NCBI RefSeq assembly: GCF_004194535.1
Contig: NZ_CP025781.1
Location: forward strand, 2,976,001-3,040,000
Origin: Iodobacter fluviatilis
GTDB lineage: Bacteria; Pseudomonadota; Gammaproteobacteria; Burkholderiales; Chitinibacteraceae
Length of the DNA: 64,000 bases
Direction: 5' to 3'
The notes below the pieces were generated by a model. That model searched no databases. It saw only the letters and a program-made list of their open reading frames with translations, and was not told the DNA's origin. Every line of letters begins with the position of its first letter. Positions within the stretch are counted from its first letter, which is position 1. Below are positions 18,595-64,000 of the stretch, piece after piece. Made by a program: the position numbers and the translations under genes.

Positions 18595-19602
18595 TTAAGA
18601 ATGGCCTTTAGTTACTTCACGTAAAGCGTTTTCAATCAGCTGGAAGTCAGCATCTTTAAGTAATTTGGAATCAGACAACACCCGTCGCCAAGTTCTAGCG
18701 CCCGGCTGATGCTGAAATAATCCCAGAATATGTCGGGTCATTAAGCGTATCGGCAAGCCCTGTGCCATTTCTGCCTCAATAAAGCGCCGCATCGCGTGCA
18801 TGACTTGCACACGGGAGGCGGTATGCGCCGCGCCGCCGTAAAACAACTCATCTACCTGAGTCAGTATCCAAGGATTATGGTAAGCCTCACGCCCCACCAT
18901 TACGCCATCCAGATGCTTTAAATGCTCCGCCGCTTGCTCATGCGTCGTAATGCCGCCATTTACAATGATTTCTAAATGCGGGAAATCTTGTTTTAACTGA
19001 TAAGCATAATGATATTTAAGCGGCGGAATTTCGCGGTTTTCTTTAGGCGACAAGCCTTTTAAAATTGCATTGCGCGCATGCACAATAAAAGTATTACAAC
19101 CTTCATCAGCGATCGTACCCACAAAATCGCGCACAAAGTCGTAGCTTTCTTCCTGATCAATGCCGATACGATGCTTGATGGTGACATCAATATCCACCAC
19201 ATCTTTCATGGCCTTTACACAATCCGCCACCAAACGCGGCTCCGCCATCAGGCAAGCACCAAACGCGCCATTTTGCACCCGCTCGGAAGGGCAACCCACA
19301 TTTAGATTAATCTCGTCATAGCCCCAGCCCTCGCCCAGCTTGGCACAAGTCGCTAAAGCCATCGGATCAGATCCACCCAGCTGCAAAGCAATTGGGTTTT
19401 CAATCTCATCAAAATTAAGATGCCGCTGCTTATCCCCATGAATAATCGCCCCAGTTGTCACCATCTCGGTGTACAGCCAAGTGTGCTTGGTTAGCAGTCT
19501 GGAAAAGTACCTATAGTGGCGATCTGTCCAGTCCAGCATAGGTGCTATAGAGTAGCGCCTACCCCTTGTATCCATTGGTTTTATTGGGTTTTCTTCAGTC
19601 AT
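18595..19602 (-). CDS. dusA: tRNA-dihydrouridine synthase A (hybrid 5' end)
   Basis: 335 aa. FMN-dependent enzyme that reduces uridines in the tRNA D-loop. RRYSIAPMLDWTDRHYRYF is the DusA start region, NVGCPSERVQNGAFGACLM contains the catalytic Cys, and the C-terminus has RHILGLFQHQPGARTWRR. The prophage crossover (core 19532-19539) lies inside codons for APMLD, so the first 23 or so residues and the upstream promoter region come from the phage, while the rest is host. The replaced 5' end is still readable at 61865-61954. The gene therefore stays intact in the lysogen but may be expressed differently. Confidence 0.95.
   Translation of the reverse strand: MTEENPIKPMDTRGRRYSIAPMLDWTDRHYRYFSRLLTKHTWLYTEMVTTGAIIHGDKQRHLNFDEIENPIALQLGGSDPMALATCAKLGEGWGYDEINLNVGCPSERVQNGAFGACLMAEPRLVADCVKAMKDVVDIDVTIKHRIGIDQEESYDFVRDFVGTIADEGCNTFIVHARNAILKGLSPKENREIPPLKYHYAYQLKQDFPHLEIIVNGGITTHEQAAEHLKHLDGVMVGREAYHNPWILTQVDELFYGGAAHTASRVQVMHAMRRFIEAEMAQGLPIRLMTRHILGLFQHQPGARTWRRVLSDSKLLKDADFQLIENALREVTKGHS
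19532..19539. other. attL core in dusA
   Basis: TCCAGCAT, shared exactly with 61881-61888. On the right-hand (codon-ward) side the two sites stay similar because both encode SIAPML, while to the left they diverge at once. That is the pattern expected for hybrid attachment sites. Confidence 0.8.
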
Positions 19603-19700: not shown

Positions 19701-19716
19701 AAAAACACGAATAGGA
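19701..19716. repeat. 16-bp integrase arm-site candidate
   Basis: AAAAACACGAATAGGA, identical to 61790-61805 and present there also in inverted orientation (61813-61828). Here it lies 162 bp from the core and just upstream of int; CTCCTATT at 19671-19678 is a partial inverted match. Copies on both sides of the core fit arm-type integrase or excisionase sites of attP. The 19603-19725 gap holds no gene. Confidence 0.6.
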
Positions 19717-19725
19717 GCGCTTAAA

Positions 19726-20853
19726 GTGGCCACCATTTTACGCGTATCGAATAAAGACGGCTCGGTTTCTTTTCAGGCACAAGTACGCATTCAGCGAGCT
19801 GGAAAGATTCTGCTGAATGAATCCAGAAATTTCAAAGTTTCAGGTGCTGGTACACGGGCAGAGGCGGTAGCAAAGCGTTTGGCTGAAGACTGGGCCGCTA
19901 GGCTAACAGAGCAGATGCAAGATGCTACAGCGATCAATCAGCACAAATTAAAAAGTGTCACTCTGCAGTCGCTGATTGGGCAATATATTGAGTTTATTGA
20001 AAAAGACAAACCGATCGGCGATACAAAGCGCAGCGTCCTGAATATTTTAGCGCGTTCCACCCTGCTTGGGGATTTACCGCTGAGTCGTCTCACCACGGAT
20101 ATTATTGTCGAGTATGCGCGTGAACGTGGCTCGGGCGGTACTCTGCCACAAACGATCAATCAAGATATTATTTATTTAGGGGGCGTTTTAAAAACAGCAA
20201 ATAAATATTTTGGTATGAATATTGATATTTCAATATTTGAGCTGGCATCAGAGTATCTGCACGCAAACGGCATGATTGGAAAATCTGCAGAGCGAGATCG
20301 GCGTCTTGGCGAATCAGAGCTATCACGCTTAATGGCAGTGGCCAGACCGACGAATCACCAGCGTGTGATCCCAATTACAGATGTAATGCGTTTTGCTGTT
20401 GAAACCGCGATGCGTCTTGGGGAAATTGTAGCTCTGCGCTGGAGCGATTTAGATGAGAAAAATCGCACCATCATGATTCGGGATCGTAAAGACCCTAAGA
20501 AAAAGATCGGTAATAACCAGATGGTCCCTTTGCTGGGCTTTGCGATGGATATCATTCAATCCCAGCCTCGTGCGCATGAGTGCATTTTTCCTTATAAAGC
20601 AGAGTGTGCTAGTGCCGCTTTCACCCGGCTTTGCTCGCGTGCTGGCATCATTGATTTACATTTTCATGATCTGAGGCATGAGGGAATCAGCCGCTTATTT
20701 GAGCAGGGGTATGCGATTCAGGAAGTGGCGTTGGTGTCTGGGCATCGGTCATGGAAAAACCTAGCACGTTATACCCAGCTGCGGGCTGTTGATTTGCACA
20801 GGGATAAGCCAAGAGTGATTACTGAGCTGTCTGATCGAGTTGATAGGCGTTAA
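19726..20853 (+). CDS. int: dusA-specific tyrosine integrase
   Basis: 375 aa tyrosine recombinase. The catalytic set is visible: Arg near 230 (AMRLGEIVALRW), the beta-strand Lys (RDRKDPKKK), HDLRHEG with His/Arg near 314/317, GHRSW near 340, and the nucleophile Tyr near 349 (LARYTQ). The N-terminal half contains a SAM-like core-binding domain. It faces away from dusA, 123 bp from the gene start, the layout known for dusA-integrating phages. A start codon other than ATG is used (gtg at 19726, weak GGAG upstream at 19713). It ends in a bidirectional terminator. Confidence 0.93.
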   Translation: MATILRVSNKDGSVSFQAQVRIQRAGKILLNESRNFKVSGAGTRAEAVAKRLAEDWAARLTEQMQDATAINQHKLKSVTLQSLIGQYIEFIEKDKPIGDTKRSVLNILARSTLLGDLPLSRLTTDIIVEYARERGSGGTLPQTINQDIIYLGGVLKTANKYFGMNIDISIFELASEYLHANGMIGKSAERDRRLGESELSRLMAVARPTNHQRVIPITDVMRFAVETAMRLGEIVALRWSDLDEKNRTIMIRDRKDPKKKIGNNQMVPLLGFAMDIIQSQPRAHECIFPYKAECASAAFTRLCSRAGIIDLHFHDLRHEGISRLFEQGYAIQEVALVSGHRSWKNLARYTQLRAVDLHRDKPRVITELSDRVDRR

Positions 20854-21996: not shown

Positions 21997-22391
21997 GATT
22001 TGATCTCTAAATTTGAAGCTGCCATCGCCCAAATTGCTTTGATATTGCTCCAACTAATAACTCGAACTATTTGCACCTCGCCATAGCCACCGCACATCTC
22101 GCATTCATCATCTGAATCTTCGTCGTCGAAGGCTTGGCATTCGCATGCGTCTTCATATATCTCCTTGAACTCACCAGATAAAAGATATTTAGCGCCATTT
22201 CCTGCGGTAAGAGCTAAAGGTAAAATCCCGTAACCAGAAGGGACAACTTGCCCCGGTAGCGCTGTCAGCTCAGCTTCAACTGCTGCCAAGCGCCGCAGTT
22301 CCTTCGCTGCATCGGACAAATAGCCAAGTAATTCAAGCTCTCCCGGACGGCCAGCTTCTAGGTATTGGGCTAATTCAATTGCGTTACTCAT
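21993..22391 (-). CDS. Phage protein with Cys-rich zinc-knuckle-like segment
   Basis: 132 aa from the ATG at 22391 (MSNAIELAQYLEAG). Helical N-terminus with KELRRLAAVEAELT. Near the C-terminus CECQAFDDED is followed by CEMCGGYGE, reminiscent of DnaJ-type CxxCxGxG zinc sites. The start touches the stop of the upstream gene. Unknown function, probably an early accessory protein. Confidence 0.6.
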   Translation of the reverse strand: MSNAIELAQYLEAGRPGELELLGYLSDAAKELRRLAAVEAELTALPGQVVPSGYGILPLALTAGNGAKYLLSGEFKEIYEDACECQAFDDEDSDDECEMCGGYGEVQIVRVISWSNIKAIWAMAASNLEIKS

Positions 22392-22576
22392 TACTGAATC
22401 CCTCCGTGAGGATTGCCACATTTCTTAGCGCCACATTCGCAGCTATAAACGCCTTTAGCCGTAATCGAGAGAGTGGAAAAACCATTGGCGCACCCACTCA
22501 TTTTTTTTACCGCGATATCTTTTACAAATTTCCACTTATGGCGCGGGCCATTAGTGCAGGCTTTTGGTTTCTTCAT
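22391..22576 (-). CDS. Small Cys-rich phage protein
   Basis: 61 aa. Cys and His pairs (KACTNGPRHKW; GVYSCECGAKKCGNPHGG) suggest a zinc-binding fold. An AGGGG ribosome-binding site lies about 11 nt upstream. It follows the TraL-like gene after 20 bp. Unknown function. Confidence 0.55.
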   Translation of the reverse strand: MKKPKACTNGPRHKWKFVKDIAVKKMSGCANGFSTLSITAKGVYSCECGAKKCGNPHGGIQ

Positions 22577-22596
22577 TGAATAATTGCCCCTTTGGT

Positions 22597-23313
22597 TTAC
22601 AAGCCAGCCGTTTCAAGCTGTTCAAAGATGTCTCGGCGCACTGTTGCCAAGCGCTGTAGTGGCATGGCGGTGAATAGGCCGCTGGCGGGTGCATCGTTAA
22701 AAGTCAATTTATTGCTGACCATCAATTCAATATCTTTGCCAAACGTTGATTTATTTCGCTGCTTGATATTGATAATCCCTTTAATTCTGTTTTTATTGTG
22801 TTCATAGATATTGGTATCGATAAAGCGCTTACCGTTCTTGCTGACATCACCAAAGTATTCGTTTTCCCATACTACGATTTGGGCTGGTTGATTTCTGAGC
22901 AGTGCCACTAGCCCATTCATGGTGTCATCCATTGCTTGCCCGCCGGTTAATACGGTATGGATATAAACCGTTTTGCCCATTTCATTGAGCATATCGATTA
23001 CCCCGTTTTCTGCTAAATAGGCAGAGAGGGGAATAAAAGTGCTTGCGCCATTATCAATAACGGCTGGGCAAGTCTGATTCATTAAGCTTTCAATTAGGCA
23101 GTCAAAAACTCGTGAATCTATTTCCATGCTTTGATTTAAAACATTTAGTCTTTGCACGGGAAGAGATTTATAGCGGCTGAATGTATCATTTACTGGATCT
23201 GTATCTGCACAAAATAAATGGTCGTTTTTTTCCTGCAGGTATTGCGCCAGTAATACGGCAATAAGACTTTTGCCAACGCCGCCTTTGCCTTGTAATACAA
23301 AATGAATGCTCAT
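22597..23313 (-). CDS. TraL/ParA-like P-loop ATPase
   Basis: 238 aa from the ATG at 23313; an upstream in-frame extension to 23505 lies inside the preceding gene in another frame and is rejected. Deviant Walker A GKGGVGKS at residues 9-16, CADTDPVN near 35-42, and VIDNGAS near 85-91. The arrangement and the overall sequence resemble TraL of IncP plasmids, a ParA-superfamily nucleotide-binding protein encoded next to TraK at oriT. In plasmids this family accompanies conjugation. Here no other transfer gene is visible, so a role in DNA segregation, localisation or mobilisation of the phage genome is inference. It lies 4 bp after the TraK-like gene. Confidence 0.8.
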   Translation of the reverse strand: MSIHFVLQGKGGVGKSLIAVLLAQYLQEKNDHLFCADTDPVNDTFSRYKSLPVQRLNVLNQSMEIDSRVFDCLIESLMNQTCPAVIDNGASTFIPLSAYLAENGVIDMLNEMGKTVYIHTVLTGGQAMDDTMNGLVALLRNQPAQIVVWENEYFGDVSKNGKRFIDTNIYEHNKNRIKGIINIKQRNKSTFGKDIELMVSNKLTFNDAPASGLFTAMPLQRLATVRRDIFEQLETAGL

Positions 23314-23317
23314 TGCT

Positions 23318-23653
23318 TTACTCCCAGAGATTGTCGGATGGTGTTTTGTCGAATTCAAATGACGGATTGCTATTTTTTGCTGCGGGTAATGCTTGGGCCG
23401 TAATTGTTTTGGCCGGGGCTGTGGCCGTGGGCGCATGGGTTTTCCTTTTTGGCGGCTTCCTGATTCTGGACAGGGTTGTTTGGTAAACCTCAAAGCTGAT
23501 ATCAAGGCCGTGCAGCTGCTTTAGTGCTGCCAGTATTTCTACGTGGGTGTAGCCATCGGCTTGTGCGGCGTTAATTTCTGGCAGTAAGGCTCTTAACCTT
23601 GCTGCGGTGCTTTGCGGTTTGCGGCTGGATAACTCAGTGAGTAAATCGGCCAT
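23318..23653 (-). CDS. TraK-like small DNA-binding protein
   Basis: 111 aa. The N-terminal 70 residues (LRALLPEINAAQADGYTHVE, LDISFEVYQTTLSRIRK) look like the helical DNA-binding domain of the TraK/KfrB type. The C-terminus is a basic, Ala/Pro/Thr-rich tail ending in FEFDKTPSDNLWE, similar in style to IncP TraK. It pairs with the TraL-like ATPase as traK-traL do in RP4. Its start is directly adjacent to an array of seven 11-bp iterons, the obvious candidate binding site. Identification rests on size, layout and partner, so it is less certain than the ATPase. Confidence 0.6.
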   Translation of the reverse strand: MADLLTELSSRKPQSTAARLRALLPEINAAQADGYTHVEILAALKQLHGLDISFEVYQTTLSRIRKPPKRKTHAPTATAPAKTITAQALPAAKNSNPSFEFDKTPSDNLWE

Positions 23654-23655
23654 TT

Positions 23656-23728
23656 TGTTTAGAAAGTGTTTAGTTTCTGTTTAGAAACTGTTTAGATTTT
23701 GTTTAGAGAATGTTTAGAAAGTGTTTAG
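23656..23728. repeat. Seven-copy 11-bp iteron array
   Basis: TGTTTAG recurs with its GTTTAG core starting at 23657, 23668, 23679, 23690, 23701, 23712 and 23723, a constant 11-bp step, about one helical turn. Consensus is roughly TGTTTAGAAAC. The array fills the whole gap between the stop at 23733 and the TraK-like start at 23653. Candidate centromere-like, oriT-like or operator site. Confidence 0.9.
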
Positions 23729-23732
23729 TTCT

Positions 23733-23927
23733 TTACACCCTGCATTCCCAAACTTCTTTTGTTGCTTGCTTTAGCTCCGCCCCTAGTTGCCAATCCAGCC
23801 GCTTTTTGCTGATCGCGGTGTCGCGGGCGATTTGTGCTGGGGTGGCCGTGTTTTTGATGATGCTACGCAGGTTCATGGTTTGATTTAACTCCTGCGCATC
23901 CCGTGTGTGTGCTCGTGCTCCTCGCAT
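23733..23927 (-). CDS. Small HTH-like phage protein
   Basis: 64 aa with a strong AAGGAG ribosome-binding site 7 nt before the ATG. The segment TPAQIARDTAISKKRLDWQL reads like a helix-turn-helix recognition region. Last gene before the iteron array, so it could regulate the TraK/TraL pair; that is inference only. Confidence 0.55.
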   Translation of the reverse strand: MRGARAHTRDAQELNQTMNLRSIIKNTATPAQIARDTAISKKRLDWQLGAELKQATKEVWECRV

Positions 23928-23938
23928 GTCTTGCTCCT

Positions 23939-24193
23939 TTAGATTTGGCTTTGTTGCCAGCTTTGTTTGGCGGCTGCGGCTTGTAGATCGATCCAGTTTG
24001 CTAGGTCTTCGATTTTTACAAAGCGTGGGGCCTGTGGGCTGTCTCTTAAACGAATGGCGGGGAATGGCAGCTTGTTTCGCGCGGCTTGTTCGTTCACTTC
24101 CCGTTTACCCAGCCCCAGAAAATCCACCCCGACCGTTTCTAGTGGCACCAGTGCTTTTTGGTAGCAGGCAAGTAGTACAAATGATGTGTTCAT
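23939..24193 (-). CDS. PrtN-like pyocin-activator-family regulator
   Basis: 84 aa. MNTSFVLLACYQKALVPLE and the C-terminal VKIEDLANWIDLQAAA match the layout of PrtN-family proteins: a short winged-helix-like protein with FLG-x6-N in the middle and a conserved L-x-D-L-x-x-x-I-D end. In Pseudomonas PrtN activates pyocin genes. In prophages family members probably act as small transcription or excision regulators. Overlaps the upstream gene by 4 bp. Confidence 0.7.
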   Translation of the reverse strand: MNTSFVLLACYQKALVPLETVGVDFLGLGKREVNEQAARNKLPFPAIRLRDSPQAPRFVKIEDLANWIDLQAAAAKQSWQQSQI

Positions 24194-24633
24194 GCTGTGG
24201 CCTTTTCTAGCAGAATAGCGGTCTGTTCTGTAACCGCTGTTGACCGTACTTTGTAAACATCCAGAGTGCGATACATGCGGCGCTGGTTTTCTACTACGGC
24301 GCTGGCCGCTGCGATTTGCTCGCTGGTTAGGTAGGCATCGGGTATATCTAGTACTTGCATCAGCACACGTAGCGGCTGCTGATCAATGCTGAAATGCATA
24401 TCTTTGCCCAGGCGTTCCCAGCAGTTGATCCAGCCGTCTAACGCGGGCACGATGGGTAAGCGGTCATCGTGCTTATCCCGAAAAACCGCGTATTCAGGTC
24501 CGCCTTCGATACTGGCGAATTCCAACTGGCCAGTGCGCAGATCATCAAACATCTGATCGATCAGTAAAAAGGCGCTGCGTACTTCAAAGATGGTGGGGGT
24601 AAGTACTTTTTTACGGCGGCTGGCGCGGTTCAT
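24190..24633 (-). CDS. Phage early protein of unknown function
   Basis: 147 aa from the ATG at 24633, which shares four bases with the stop of the dNMP kinase-like gene. Basic N-terminus (MNRASRRKKVLTP). The middle is helical (FEVRSAFLLIDQMFDDLRTG). Family not recognised. Its coupled position suggests it belongs to the nucleotide/replication part of the operon. Confidence 0.6.
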   Translation of the reverse strand: MNRASRRKKVLTPTIFEVRSAFLLIDQMFDDLRTGQLEFASIEGGPEYAVFRDKHDDRLPIVPALDGWINCWERLGKDMHFSIDQQPLRVLMQVLDIPDAYLTSEQIAAASAVVENQRRMYRTLDVYKVRSTAVTEQTAILLEKATA

Positions 24634-25049
24634 GCGTGGCCCCACAAGCTGCGTGATTGATGTTGTATCGTTGATTGCAAATGCAGCTCACAAATAATAT
24701 GCAGGCTGCGAATGTCGCCGTAATTATTGATGTTCTGATCAATAAAATATGGCGATATGCCGCGCTCGCTAGAATGCGGATTAACTGCTGCAATATTACG
24801 GCGATTGATTTGCCAGATATGCCCGTTTAATTTACTAATTAATTCGGCTTGATCGTCAAAGTGCACGCTGGTAACAACGATGTTTCCCACTGTTGATTTG
24901 ATACGTTTTTCTAATTCCTCTGTTTGTTTTAATGCGTCGCCAAACGCCATTTTTGTAAAATCATGCTGAGCCAGCAGAAAATCAGCTACAGTGTCTTTGC
25001 CTGCCCCAGCTAATCCGCTGAGCCCGATAATAATGCGTGGTTTATTCAT
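24630..25049 (-). CDS. Deoxynucleotide monophosphate kinase-like protein
   Basis: 139 aa. The N-terminus IIIGLSGLAGAGKDTVADFL is a P-loop of the phage dNMP kinase type (AGAGKDT), followed by FTKMAFGDALKQ, the usual substrate-side motif. The body is shorter than typical phage dNMP kinases (often around 200 aa), and the C-terminal part (HLQSTIQHQSRSLWGHA) looks abrupt, so it may be a divergent or truncated enzyme. Would phosphorylate dNMPs for phage DNA synthesis. Overlaps both neighbours by 4 bp. Confidence 0.72.
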   Translation of the reverse strand: MNKPRIIIGLSGLAGAGKDTVADFLLAQHDFTKMAFGDALKQTEELEKRIKSTVGNIVVTSVHFDDQAELISKLNGHIWQINRRNIAAVNPHSSERGISPYFIDQNINNYGDIRSLHIICELHLQSTIQHQSRSLWGHA

Positions 25050-25311: not shown

Positions 25312-26223
25312 TTAAGCTGCAGCCCTTTGTTCTTCGGGCAGGTAGCCGATCATTTCGCATAAATTGCTGATTAAGGTCGATGTCATGAGGGTTTGTACGG
25401 CGGCTTCGTGCATCCATACGTCAACAAAAGATTCTTTGTTGTAGGCTTCTTCATAATCATCAAATGCAATAGATTTAAGGTGGAATTGTTCGGTTAAATT
25501 AAAGGAGCCTAATTTTGATATGAGTTGAATCTGTTTTACTTCAAAACCACTATCAAGTGCTTCAATAAAACCTTTCTCAGCAGCGGCTGTTGCGTTGTGC
25601 AAATTAAATGTGACTTTTTCTTTTTTTTGTCTTTGGAGCTGTACATGATCTCCTACATTAAAGTGGCCAAATGCTGTGTTATTGCCATTTACTTGGTCGC
25701 ATAGTAAGGCTGTAATTCCTTTGGTTACGCTATTAATATGAATGGTAGATGTTTTTAGCGTTTCAATTGCAATTATTAATAAATTAATAATCATTTGTGC
25801 ATGGCGGCTGCTACTAATGGGGATAATTAGATATTTCTTTTTTGTATCAAAGAAAACAGTAATGATTGAGGTTTTTGCAATGGCTCGCTTAATAATGTCA
25901 GTCGCTACGATATCTTTAAGGTCGCGTCTTTCCTTTTTGCCAACTTTGCGTTTTTCTTCTGTTTCAACTTTTGCCACTAATTCCTGCGTCTTTAGTTCAA
26001 TGGCGCTGTTAGGGATTACTTTTTCATCAATGCGCACGGCAAAGGCCATGCCTCCTTCGTAATTGATGACCGTTTCATTGCTGATAGGTACGCCAACAAA
26101 GCCAATCGACAGTGTTTCCAGTGAGGTTGGTTCAATAAATGGACGCGCTTCTAGTTTGTCGGCAAGTATTTTCGATGTGGGCATTTCTACATTAAAGACA
26201 ATGGCGTTTTTTATTAATTTCAT
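25312..26223 (-). CDS. rdgC: RdgC-like recombination-associated protein
   Basis: 303 aa from the ATG at 26223 (MKLIKNAIVFNV), which has GAGG 7 nt upstream; the longer readings to 26262 and 26313 lack a ribosome-binding site and run through a repeat. The order of motifs (KNAIVFNV, the charged ELVAKVETEEKRKVGKKERR segment, IPISSSRHAQ, C-terminal LYLPEEQR-like end) matches RdgC, a ring-shaped DNA-binding protein that limits RecA activity. A phage copy may influence recombination of the incoming genome. Confidence 0.85.
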   Translation of the reverse strand: MKLIKNAIVFNVEMPTSKILADKLEARPFIEPTSLETLSIGFVGVPISNETVINYEGGMAFAVRIDEKVIPNSAIELKTQELVAKVETEEKRKVGKKERRDLKDIVATDIIKRAIAKTSIITVFFDTKKKYLIIPISSSRHAQMIINLLIIAIETLKTSTIHINSVTKGITALLCDQVNGNNTAFGHFNVGDHVQLQRQKKEKVTFNLHNATAAAEKGFIEALDSGFEVKQIQLISKLGSFNLTEQFHLKSIAFDDYEEAYNKESFVDVWMHEAAVQTLMTSTLISNLCEMIGYLPEEQRAAA

Positions 26224-26244
26224 GGGGAGCCTCAGTTTGGTGGT

Positions 26245-26284
26245 GGTTTTTTTAGTTGACATATTAAGTAAGGGTGGTCGCTCC
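26245..26284. repeat. Direct repeat, left copy
   Basis: About 40 bp (GGTTTTTTTAGTTGACAT...GGTGGTCGCTCC), repeated at 26623-26661 with one indel and two mismatches. The two copies flank the small gene at 26337-26597, suggesting its insertion or duplication by recombination at the repeat. Confidence 0.8.
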
Positions 26285-26288
26285 GATC

Positions 26289-26384
26289 GGCTCGGTATTG
26301 GTTTGAATGCCATAATCCGTAAGCCAATTAAAGGTACTAGCGGCCATAAAGTAAGCCCCCTGGCCTTTGCTCTTGTTGAATCAC
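26289..26384 (-). repeat. Stray copy of the gpH/gpM junction
   Basis: On the minus strand these 96 bp match 50834-50929 at about 88 positions. They encode the last residues of the tape-measure protein (VIQQEQRPGGLLYGR, stop) and the first 20 codons of gpM (MAASTFNW...). Several differences are silent, so it looks like a fragment of a related phage rather than a recent copy. Confidence 0.85.
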
Positions 26385-61788: not shown

Positions 61789-61829
61789 AAAAAACACGAA
61801 TAGGAAAATAAATCCTATTCGTGTTTTTT
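61789..61829. repeat. Inverted 17-bp arm-site repeat / bidirectional terminator
   Basis: AAAAAACACGAATAGGA (61789-61805) and its exact complement (61813-61829), loop AAATAAA. Shares 16 bp with 19701-19716 near attL. Could serve as integrase arm sites and as a terminator with A- and T-runs on both strands. Confidence 0.7.
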
Positions 61830-63212: not shown

Positions 63213-64000
63213 TTATTTGGTTTTATTGTTTAATATATTAACTTCCTTCATCTTCGATTCATTTTTTCTTAGTTCTTTACCGCAAACAGCGCCATGCTCA
63301 AGTAAAATACTTATCATTTCTTTTTTTGAGTATTTGATTGCATTATCCAGCATGGTATCTCCACTATTCACGGTTGTAAATTTCTTGTTAGGTTCTACCA
63401 ATTTAAGGTCCAGAAATATTTTTAGTATTCTACTGTCAGAAGATTTATCGCTTAGAATGTATGCTATGCCGCCATCGTATGACGACATTTTATGTGTATC
63501 TTCTTTGCTAAAATTGAACTTTGAAAACAAATATTCAACAATATCAGGTTTTGATTTTTTAATGGCAATTCCCATTGCTTTACATGCATCGTCCTTGTTC
63601 TTTATGTGGGCAGAAAGCTCTTCAATGTTAGATGCACTAATTGCTTCGCCCAACCTTATTTCTCGTAACTGAACTTTTTTAAAATTGGTTGTGCTAACCA
63701 TTCGTGGGATATGGAACTCTGGTTGAAATACAAAGTTGAGGACTCTATCTAAATCCTTATTCCCTAGGTTTTTATTTAGGACAAATTCCTTAAATTTGTT
63801 ATCAGTACTATTTCTCAAAAAATCGATAAGATGTAGTCCCAGCGCAACCTTCAAGTCCTTAGCGTTATAAATAGGTATATCATGTCGGCCATTTTCTCCA
63901 TGTACATACCTTTCTATTTCGTTTCTAACTTGAGAAAATTGAGATATGAAATCTTTATGTTCATGAGTAAATGCAGGTGGTACTTTGTTATCAAAGTGAT
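63213..64000 (-). CDS. Ankyrin-repeat-like protein (5' end beyond window)
   Basis: The frame is open from the stop at 63213 to the window edge with no stop, so the start lies outside. Sequence upstream of the apparent TTG at 63854 continues in frame (RYVHGENGRHDIPIYNAKDL), so that TTG is not the start. Ankyrin-like repeats: CKAMGIAIKKSKPDIVEYLF, then TMLDNAIKYSKKEMISILLE HG-type helices. AT-rich relative to the prophage, which suggests separate acquisition, perhaps as cargo of the older dusA element. Partners unknown. Confidence 0.75.
   Translation of the reverse strand, partial: HFDNKVPPAFTHEHKDFISQFSQVRNEIERYVHGENGRHDIPIYNAKDLKVALGLHLIDFLRNSTDNKFKEFVLNKNLGNKDLDRVLNFVFQPEFHIPRMVSTTNFKKVQLREIRLGEAISASNIEELSAHIKNKDDACKAMGIAIKKSKPDIVEYLFSKFNFSKEDTHKMSSYDGGIAYILSDKSSDSRILKIFLDLKLVEPNKKFTTVNSGDTMLDNAIKYSKKEMISILLEHGAVCGKELRKNESKMKEVNILNNKTK

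Follow-up and report, generated by a model that had tools for sequence, protein, structure and literature searches.

The window analysed here, a 64,000-nucleotide stretch of Iodobacter fluviatilis chromosomal DNA, carries a prophage that contains a compact block of two genes and a repeat array (22597–23728). The features concerned, in window positions, are as follows:

19558–61880 (no strand): prophage of about 42 kb with its insertion point at the 5′ end of a dus gene; boundaries known to within about 30 bp
19726–20853 (plus strand): integrase at the left prophage end (PHROG integrase, 6.4e-50)
22597–23313 (minus strand): traL-like gene, 238 aa; ParA-superfamily ATPase with deviant Walker A motif GKGGVGKS
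23318–23653 (minus strand): stbA-like gene, 111 aa; helical DNA-binding domain, low-confidence Pro/Lys-rich stretch and C-terminal F...W tail
23656–23728 (minus strand): array of seven CTAAACA cores in 11-bp phase; candidate StbA binding array (stbDR-like)
23733–23927 (minus strand): small ORF that stops 4 bp ahead of the array; below 0.1 it matches no family; outside the shared block
23939–24193 (minus strand): PrtN-like, excisionase-type gene upstream of the module (Pfam PyocinActivator, 2.4e-20; PHROG excisionase, 8e-21)

The CTAAACA cores of the minus strand, reading TGTTTAG on the plus strand, begin at 23656, 23667, 23678, 23689, 23700, 23711 and 23722, a step of exactly 11 bp. A preliminary description of this DNA had reported seven cores with exact 11-bp spacing at 23656–23728; both coordinates and spacing are confirmed by the core starts and by Tandem Repeats Finder, which returns period 11 over the same interval. 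A search for overlapping CTAAACA-N4-CTAAACA pairs tolerating at most one mismatch finds six, each free of mismatches, where 100 dinucleotide shuffles average 0.01. A lone core is not rare (nine in the window, 8.3 expected), and the improbable feature of the array is its phasing, not the core itself. The last core lies 2 bp from the ATG of the 111-aa gene, and the ATPase gene, with its motif in the context LQGKGGVGKS, starts 4 bp past the stop of that gene. The gene coordinates thereby bear out the order described earlier, an ATPase with GKGGVGKS preceded 4 bp upstream by a small gene and the array directly before it. No sigma-70-like promoter was found by a scan of 22300–24200.

The ATPase matches the NCBIfam TraL model along its full length (E 2.4e-79; 266 bits, below the cut-off of 360), a far better fit than that to any ParA model. 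It is 48–51% identical to plasmid TraL proteins among the matches listed or aligned, with 48% for TraL of pBS228, and in a search of plasmid records 1242 of 72,556 match it, all below 60% identity. Its predicted structure (pLDDT 92.3) matches HypB, plasmid partition proteins, CooC and others of the ParA ATPase superfamily. StbB of plasmid R388 has no detectable similarity to this ATPase and is missed by the TraL profile.

The 111-aa protein, searched as a single sequence against NCBIfam, gives a weak StbA match (1.3e-4) and remains under the StbA_2 equivalog cut-off (22.6 of 100 bits); StbA_2 is matched at E ≤ 0.1 by 13 of 18 related small proteins, the best at 1.2e-6. A profile of these 18 proteins places StbA (7pc1) at the top of the PDB with an E-value of 2.5e-14, the next chain following at 0.037, and a second small-protein profile result against the same structure stands at 3.4e-15. 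In the alignment, 7pc1 shows the letters of R388 StbA, which the profile also finds directly (63.5 bits) over the DNA-binding domain and the beginning of the linker. On these profile matches, the small protein is assigned an StbA DNA-binding domain. Its predicted model consists of five N-terminal helices followed by an unstructured low-confidence tail, and Foldseek with this low-confidence model (pLDDT 70.7) returns no significant match, 7pc1 being absent from its list. The tail F-x-[aromatic] ... W or WE ends 15 of the 18 related small proteins and is missing from three. Plasmid TraK-like proteins end in F-x-[F/Y/H/W] ... DLI, DLL, DWL or W in nine of ten cases; R388 StbA has no F-x-aromatic tail. 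We propose that the C-terminal tail of the small protein contacts the ATPase. The TraK/TraL (StbA/StbB) kinship of the pair, claimed in the preliminary description, is thus well supported by sequence similarity on both sides (TraL model, StbA profile), with two qualifications: the TraL cut-off is missed, and the adaptor appears nearer to R388 StbA.

The prophage location given earlier also holds. The genes identified include the integrase, the large terminase subunit, portal, tape measure, tail J and a weakly spanin-like gene, and the insertion site is empty in four of eight same-genus relatives (flanks contiguous in G002, G003 and G008; in G004 the two places adjoin). On the left, the flanking gene encodes a dihydrouridine synthase (Dus, 5e-88). 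Host homology on this side ends at 19557 in seven of the eight relatives; the exception is G001, where homology continues past 19557 and another element seems to sit. On the right, homology picks up again at about 61881. A 16-bp direct repeat (19701–19716 and 61790–61805) was rejected as att, as flank comparison puts the ends near 19557 and 61881; its right copy forms an arm of a terminator-like hairpin with a T run and is probably not an att core. The module belongs to a leftward gene group between a repressor-like gene and the integrase, adjoining the PrtN/excisionase-like gene. The prophage also contains a deoxynucleotide monophosphate kinase-like gene (24630–25049) near a gene for an RdgC-like protein (25312–26313, minus strand; Pfam RdgC, 1.9e-34). 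An ankyrin-repeat protein is encoded beyond the right prophage end (63213–63854, minus strand; Pfam Shigella_OspC, 2.2e-62).

The gene pair is present in two of the eight relatives, G001 (71% identity) and G008 (64%), with the same core and phase; their arrays hold degenerate or displaced units, and seven perfect copies are found in the window only. The sole blastn match of the 64-kb window to the 47-kb G001 contig C70 is 22596–23728, from the array edge to the TraL stop, and the 46-kb G008 contig C135 matches over 22585–23730 and in one 261-bp segment elsewhere. The terminases belong to phrog_3746/phrog_2 in G001 and to phrog_15 in the window and G008, the G008 prophage has a serine-type integrase, and the three prophages differ in further parts too. 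The window and G001 prophages have in common only the module and one weak protein match; the window and G008 prophages, a terminase (36%) and a few other proteins; those of G001 and G008, tail/baseplate proteins (up to 48%) and one 60%-identical protein. In G001, the module adjoins the portal gene of a prophage read as P2-like. By these comparisons, the module behaves like a transferable 1.13-kb cassette found in different, not wholly unrelated, prophages. Across the modules, pN (0.20–0.32) is lower than pS (0.59–0.86). Exact triple CTAAACA arrays in the nine Iodobacter genomes all lie at the three modules, the only array match elsewhere being one in G006 with three mismatches. A G006 locus (L162, contig C150) encodes a distant StbA-like protein and a KGGTGKS ATPase, has no CTAAACA array and adjoins genes for large proteins resembling transfer proteins.

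Beyond the genus, single-protein scans of viral and genome contigs gave no match, and alignment-based scans were needed. These yielded 19 and 20 viral loci (18 common to both) and at least 459 relatives among 587 genome stretches, of which the best 80 were examined. Loci were sorted by the presence of conjugation genes with a small reference protein set over flanks of at most 10 kb, often less. With a crude k-mer score of at least 8, the best lag is 11 in 17 of 49 loci without a conjugation match. Of 54 conjugation-type loci, 15 have 10 or 11 as best lag, and a single one had upstream DNA too short to score; among 515 random segments, lag 10 or 11 occurs in 7 and any lag in 27.

An explicit array finder (period 11 best of 8–14, score ≥33, just upstream of the ATG) was applied to the 28 of these 49 loci that have a clear StbA-like partner. 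It detects an 11-bp array just upstream of stbA in 25 of the 28 and none at three Pseudoduganella loci (L046, L047, L063). The 28 include near-copies (L025/L026; L027/L029/L030/L032/L034/L089; L031/L086; L035/L096; L033/L036/L125) and reduce by eye to about 15 groups. The 21 loci dropped either gave no StbA-like partner, as in several from Neisseria, Advenella, Oligella and Stenoxybacter, L051 and others, or have a distant one, as in Acidobacteria and other MAGs. Random ATGs in the same loci reach a score of 33 with period 11 in 2 of 450 cases (any period, 8 of 450), and one of these two (L028:1939) adjoins the array of L028 itself. The preliminary description had taken the array to be the site of the module; the recurrence of phased arrays beside related pairs supports this, and the array probably belongs to the module as its own site. 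As a rule for homologous pairs, the recurrence holds at the 25 loci but fails at the three Pseudoduganella loci and at plasmid loci such as that of IncP pBS228.

The core varies by lineage (CTAAACA, GTTAGCA, ATGAGCA, ATGAACA, GTTATCA, TGCAAAC), and the phased series fits T-N-A-N-C in 23 of the 25 array loci, L028 and L038 being the exceptions. The start codon itself supplies the last core in 16 of the 25 (TGAGC, or TGAAC in L077, at +1; ATG-AGC/AAC). A Shine-Dalgarno-like motif is missing at 24 of the 25 array-bearing stbA starts and present at all three array-less ones; TraL starts have it in 13 of 25. At L045 the array stops some 50 bp short of the start codon, and the neighbourhood of this locus gives integrase-like and unknown matches only, leaving the phage setting unclear, as it is for L028, which groups with plasmid-type TraL in the tree. 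Among 11 further pairs (ten plasmid, one genome), period 10 or 11 is strong in L004, L016, L018, L021, L023 and L024, borderline in L022 and not seen in L015, L017, L019 and L020. Plasmid or conjugation-type TraK/TraL loci often step by 10 bp, not 11 (L016, L021, L024, L056, L058, L068, L084).

Loci without conjugation genes group together in the tree of 99 TraL rows: a 100/99 clade takes in 14 of them, and the smallest starred set that holds the window beyond its own trio comprises 18 conjugation-free loci and one plasmid. The ATPase gene accompanies the array in distant lineages. The 113 ORFs pooled from the surroundings of nine loci (L037, L045 and L046 left out) include seven integrase and six repressor matches, together with CII-like, small-terminase and DnaC-like loader matches. 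Four tblastn searches of 50,697 phage records found no relative; the sequences in which we know the module are therefore of prophage type and not those phage records. A well-supported TraL group from Neisseriaceae and Alcaligenaceae (L049, L061, L064, L074, L075, L079, L104, L106, L108, L112) has no detected StbA-like partner and lacks an 11-bp array; an unrelated upstream protein is common to L104, L106 and L112.

A reverse search that started from the array found 55 viral stretches with an array pattern (7, 10 and 38 by pattern). The StbA/TraL pair is held by five of them, two being the contigs of L025 and L026, and by none of the seven CTAAACA stretches, so the array alone is not diagnostic. 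Several viral contigs (L214 and others) have phased TTAGC, TGAGCA or CTAAACA without the pair in the stretch covered and may include other phased-repeat systems.

The StbA/StbB system of R388 offers a precedent. StbA is reported to bind the stbDRs and to be needed for plasmid stability and even placement, and its loss moves foci to nucleoid-free space, whereas StbB has the opposite effect on location and is needed for transfer, not stability (PMC3098194). The same paper describes the two proteins as a balance of plasmid inheritance and conjugation, counts RP4 TraL among the StbB homologues and reports that StbA supplied in trans abolished transfer of an stb-deleted R388 retaining stbDRs (PMC3098194). 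A second paper reports that StbA lowers its own promoter about 50-fold and represses several plasmid promoters (PMC3937220). The R388 record itself has eight stbDR matches, which follow an 11-bp grid and fall into two groups, with one unit of the second group failing to reach the match cut-off.

Fifteen relaxase, accessory, coupling, ATPase, TraM and StbC queries, pBS228 TraJ and TraM among them, were searched against the window, its 20-kb flanks, G001:C70 and G008:C135 and found no homologue (E ≤ 0.01), of the T4SS or otherwise, at the three Iodobacter modules; at the window module, TraJ, TraM and adjacent oriT features were not found. The IncP-type nic motif occurs in five of five plasmid regions checked; a scan of 1.5 kb around the modules finds none at those of the window and G001 and two degenerate matches at that of G008. 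In nine of ten plasmid regions the gene pair has relaxase, accessory or other transfer genes as neighbours (none at L016), and this company would suit a remnant of a mobilisable element, in which the array is part of an oriT and a resident conjugative plasmid can move the prophage. However, with no match among the 15 queries and no nic motif near the window module, mobilisation, one of the roles raised in the preliminary description, is disfavoured, and such a remnant seems scarcely credible; the accompanying statement that no other conjugation gene is present agrees with the outcome of these queries in the window and its flanks. A cassette whose StbA/TraL disturbs the conjugation or maintenance of incoming plasmids would have a model in the effect of R388 StbA in trans (PMC3098194), and the block does behave as a transferable cassette in different prophages. 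Nevertheless, exact triple arrays occur only at the modules in nine whole Iodobacter genomes, the cassette brings its own array, unneeded by a trans-acting inhibitor, and PADLOC gave no match for either protein, which makes this role rather improbable. The PADLOC result also counts against phage–phage competition or superinfection exclusion through ATPase-dependent DNA binding. Such a role, suggested by placement as an accessory block and, in G001, beside a portal gene, would need the module's own array as its target, and the family precedent is stability and positioning; we regard it as very unlikely.

The module might also be mainly a self-limiting regulator, in which StbA acts as the repressor of its operon, and perhaps of further phage promoters, with an ATPase that only tunes it and with no positioning of DNA. 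Repression of several plasmid promoters by R388 StbA (PMC3937220) and the array that occupies the leader, together with the contrast in Shine-Dalgarno-like motifs between array-bearing and array-less starts (missing in 24 of 25 and in none of three), are consistent with such a role. However, the nine Iodobacter genomes contain no further exact triple array, seven sites seem more than simple autorepression needs and array and ATPase remain together in distant lineages. We consider a purely regulatory module unlikely.

The anatomy of the block, the homology of its proteins and the recurrence of phased arrays are established, and no transfer gene was found; from the R388 family we infer binding, autorepression and the positioning role, and the contact between tail and ATPase is our proposal. 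Our preferred reading, which we hold to be somewhat probable, is a self-repressing, conjugation-free StbAB-type module whose array is a centromere-like site that places phage DNA on the nucleoid. Block 22597–23728 would then be a self-contained unit of centromere-like array, adaptor and ATPase. One StbA would bind each CTAAACA core, one per helical turn, setting seven molecules on one face of the DNA. Array-bound StbA would repress its own gene, which we propose because the array fills the space where a promoter and leader are expected, and would form a nucleoprotein resembling a partition complex. The flexible linker and short C-terminal tail of StbA could then contact the TraL ATPase, and the two proteins may tie phage DNA to the nucleoid, or spread it there, while it is extrachromosomal. 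The time of use would be that of the free circle, either between infection and integration or after excision; since an integrated prophage needs no partition, the useful moment for positioning is hypothetical. As R388 StbB is dispensable for plasmid stability (PMC3098194), the role of the window ATPase may not be partition.

We further speculate, with more doubt, that these modules form a class of temperate-phage centromeres, by which prophages of Neisseriales and relatives would hold circular DNA on the nucleoid, ahead of integration or following excision, via an StbA/TraL module freed from conjugation. With the array running into the start codon, complex assembly and the shut-off of synthesis would be a single event, and the 1.1-kb cassette would spread between phages.

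The finding holds, and its reach is wider than the window sequence alone could show. A module conserved in prophages without detected transfer genes separates the inheritance and conjugation roles, making the positioning role separable for study. An array core that varies by lineage at a constant 11-bp step is a natural series for adaptor–site specificity. The module further prompts the question whether an integrating phage has to position its DNA before it integrates. The listings of the one paper collection searched include no description of StbA/TraL modules in prophages. The parts are of known kind; what appears new, judging from those searches, is the conjugation-free, prophage-borne form with an array that runs to the start codon.

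Among known systems, ParABS partition loci of types Ia and Ib resemble the module in combining a deviant Walker A ATPase, a small DNA-binding adaptor and a repeated site beside the operon, and fold matches of the window ATPase include plasmid partition proteins; however, the adaptor is StbA-type by sequence and the ATPase is nearer to TraL than to ParA models. IncP TraK-TraL(-TraM) resembles it in TraL (48% identity for pBS228), in the small partner gene directly upstream and in the C-terminal F-x-[aromatic or H] tail of nine of ten plasmid TraK-like proteins. Unlike the IncP system, the window module has no TraJ, TraM or nic motif and does not reach the NCBIfam TraL cut-off, and pBS228 for its part has no detectable 10/11-bp array. 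From stbABC of R388 (IncW), the module differs in having no detected oriT, StbC or transfer genes, in an array that reaches nearly to the start codon, and in a TraL-like ATPase without detectable StbB similarity, while R388 StbA does not have the F-x-aromatic tail. Both systems nevertheless have an StbA DNA-binding domain, a ParA-type ATPase gene next to it and, ahead of stbA, direct repeats that follow an 11-bp grid, and for the DNA-binding half the closer match, by profile comparison, is R388 StbA rather than TraK.
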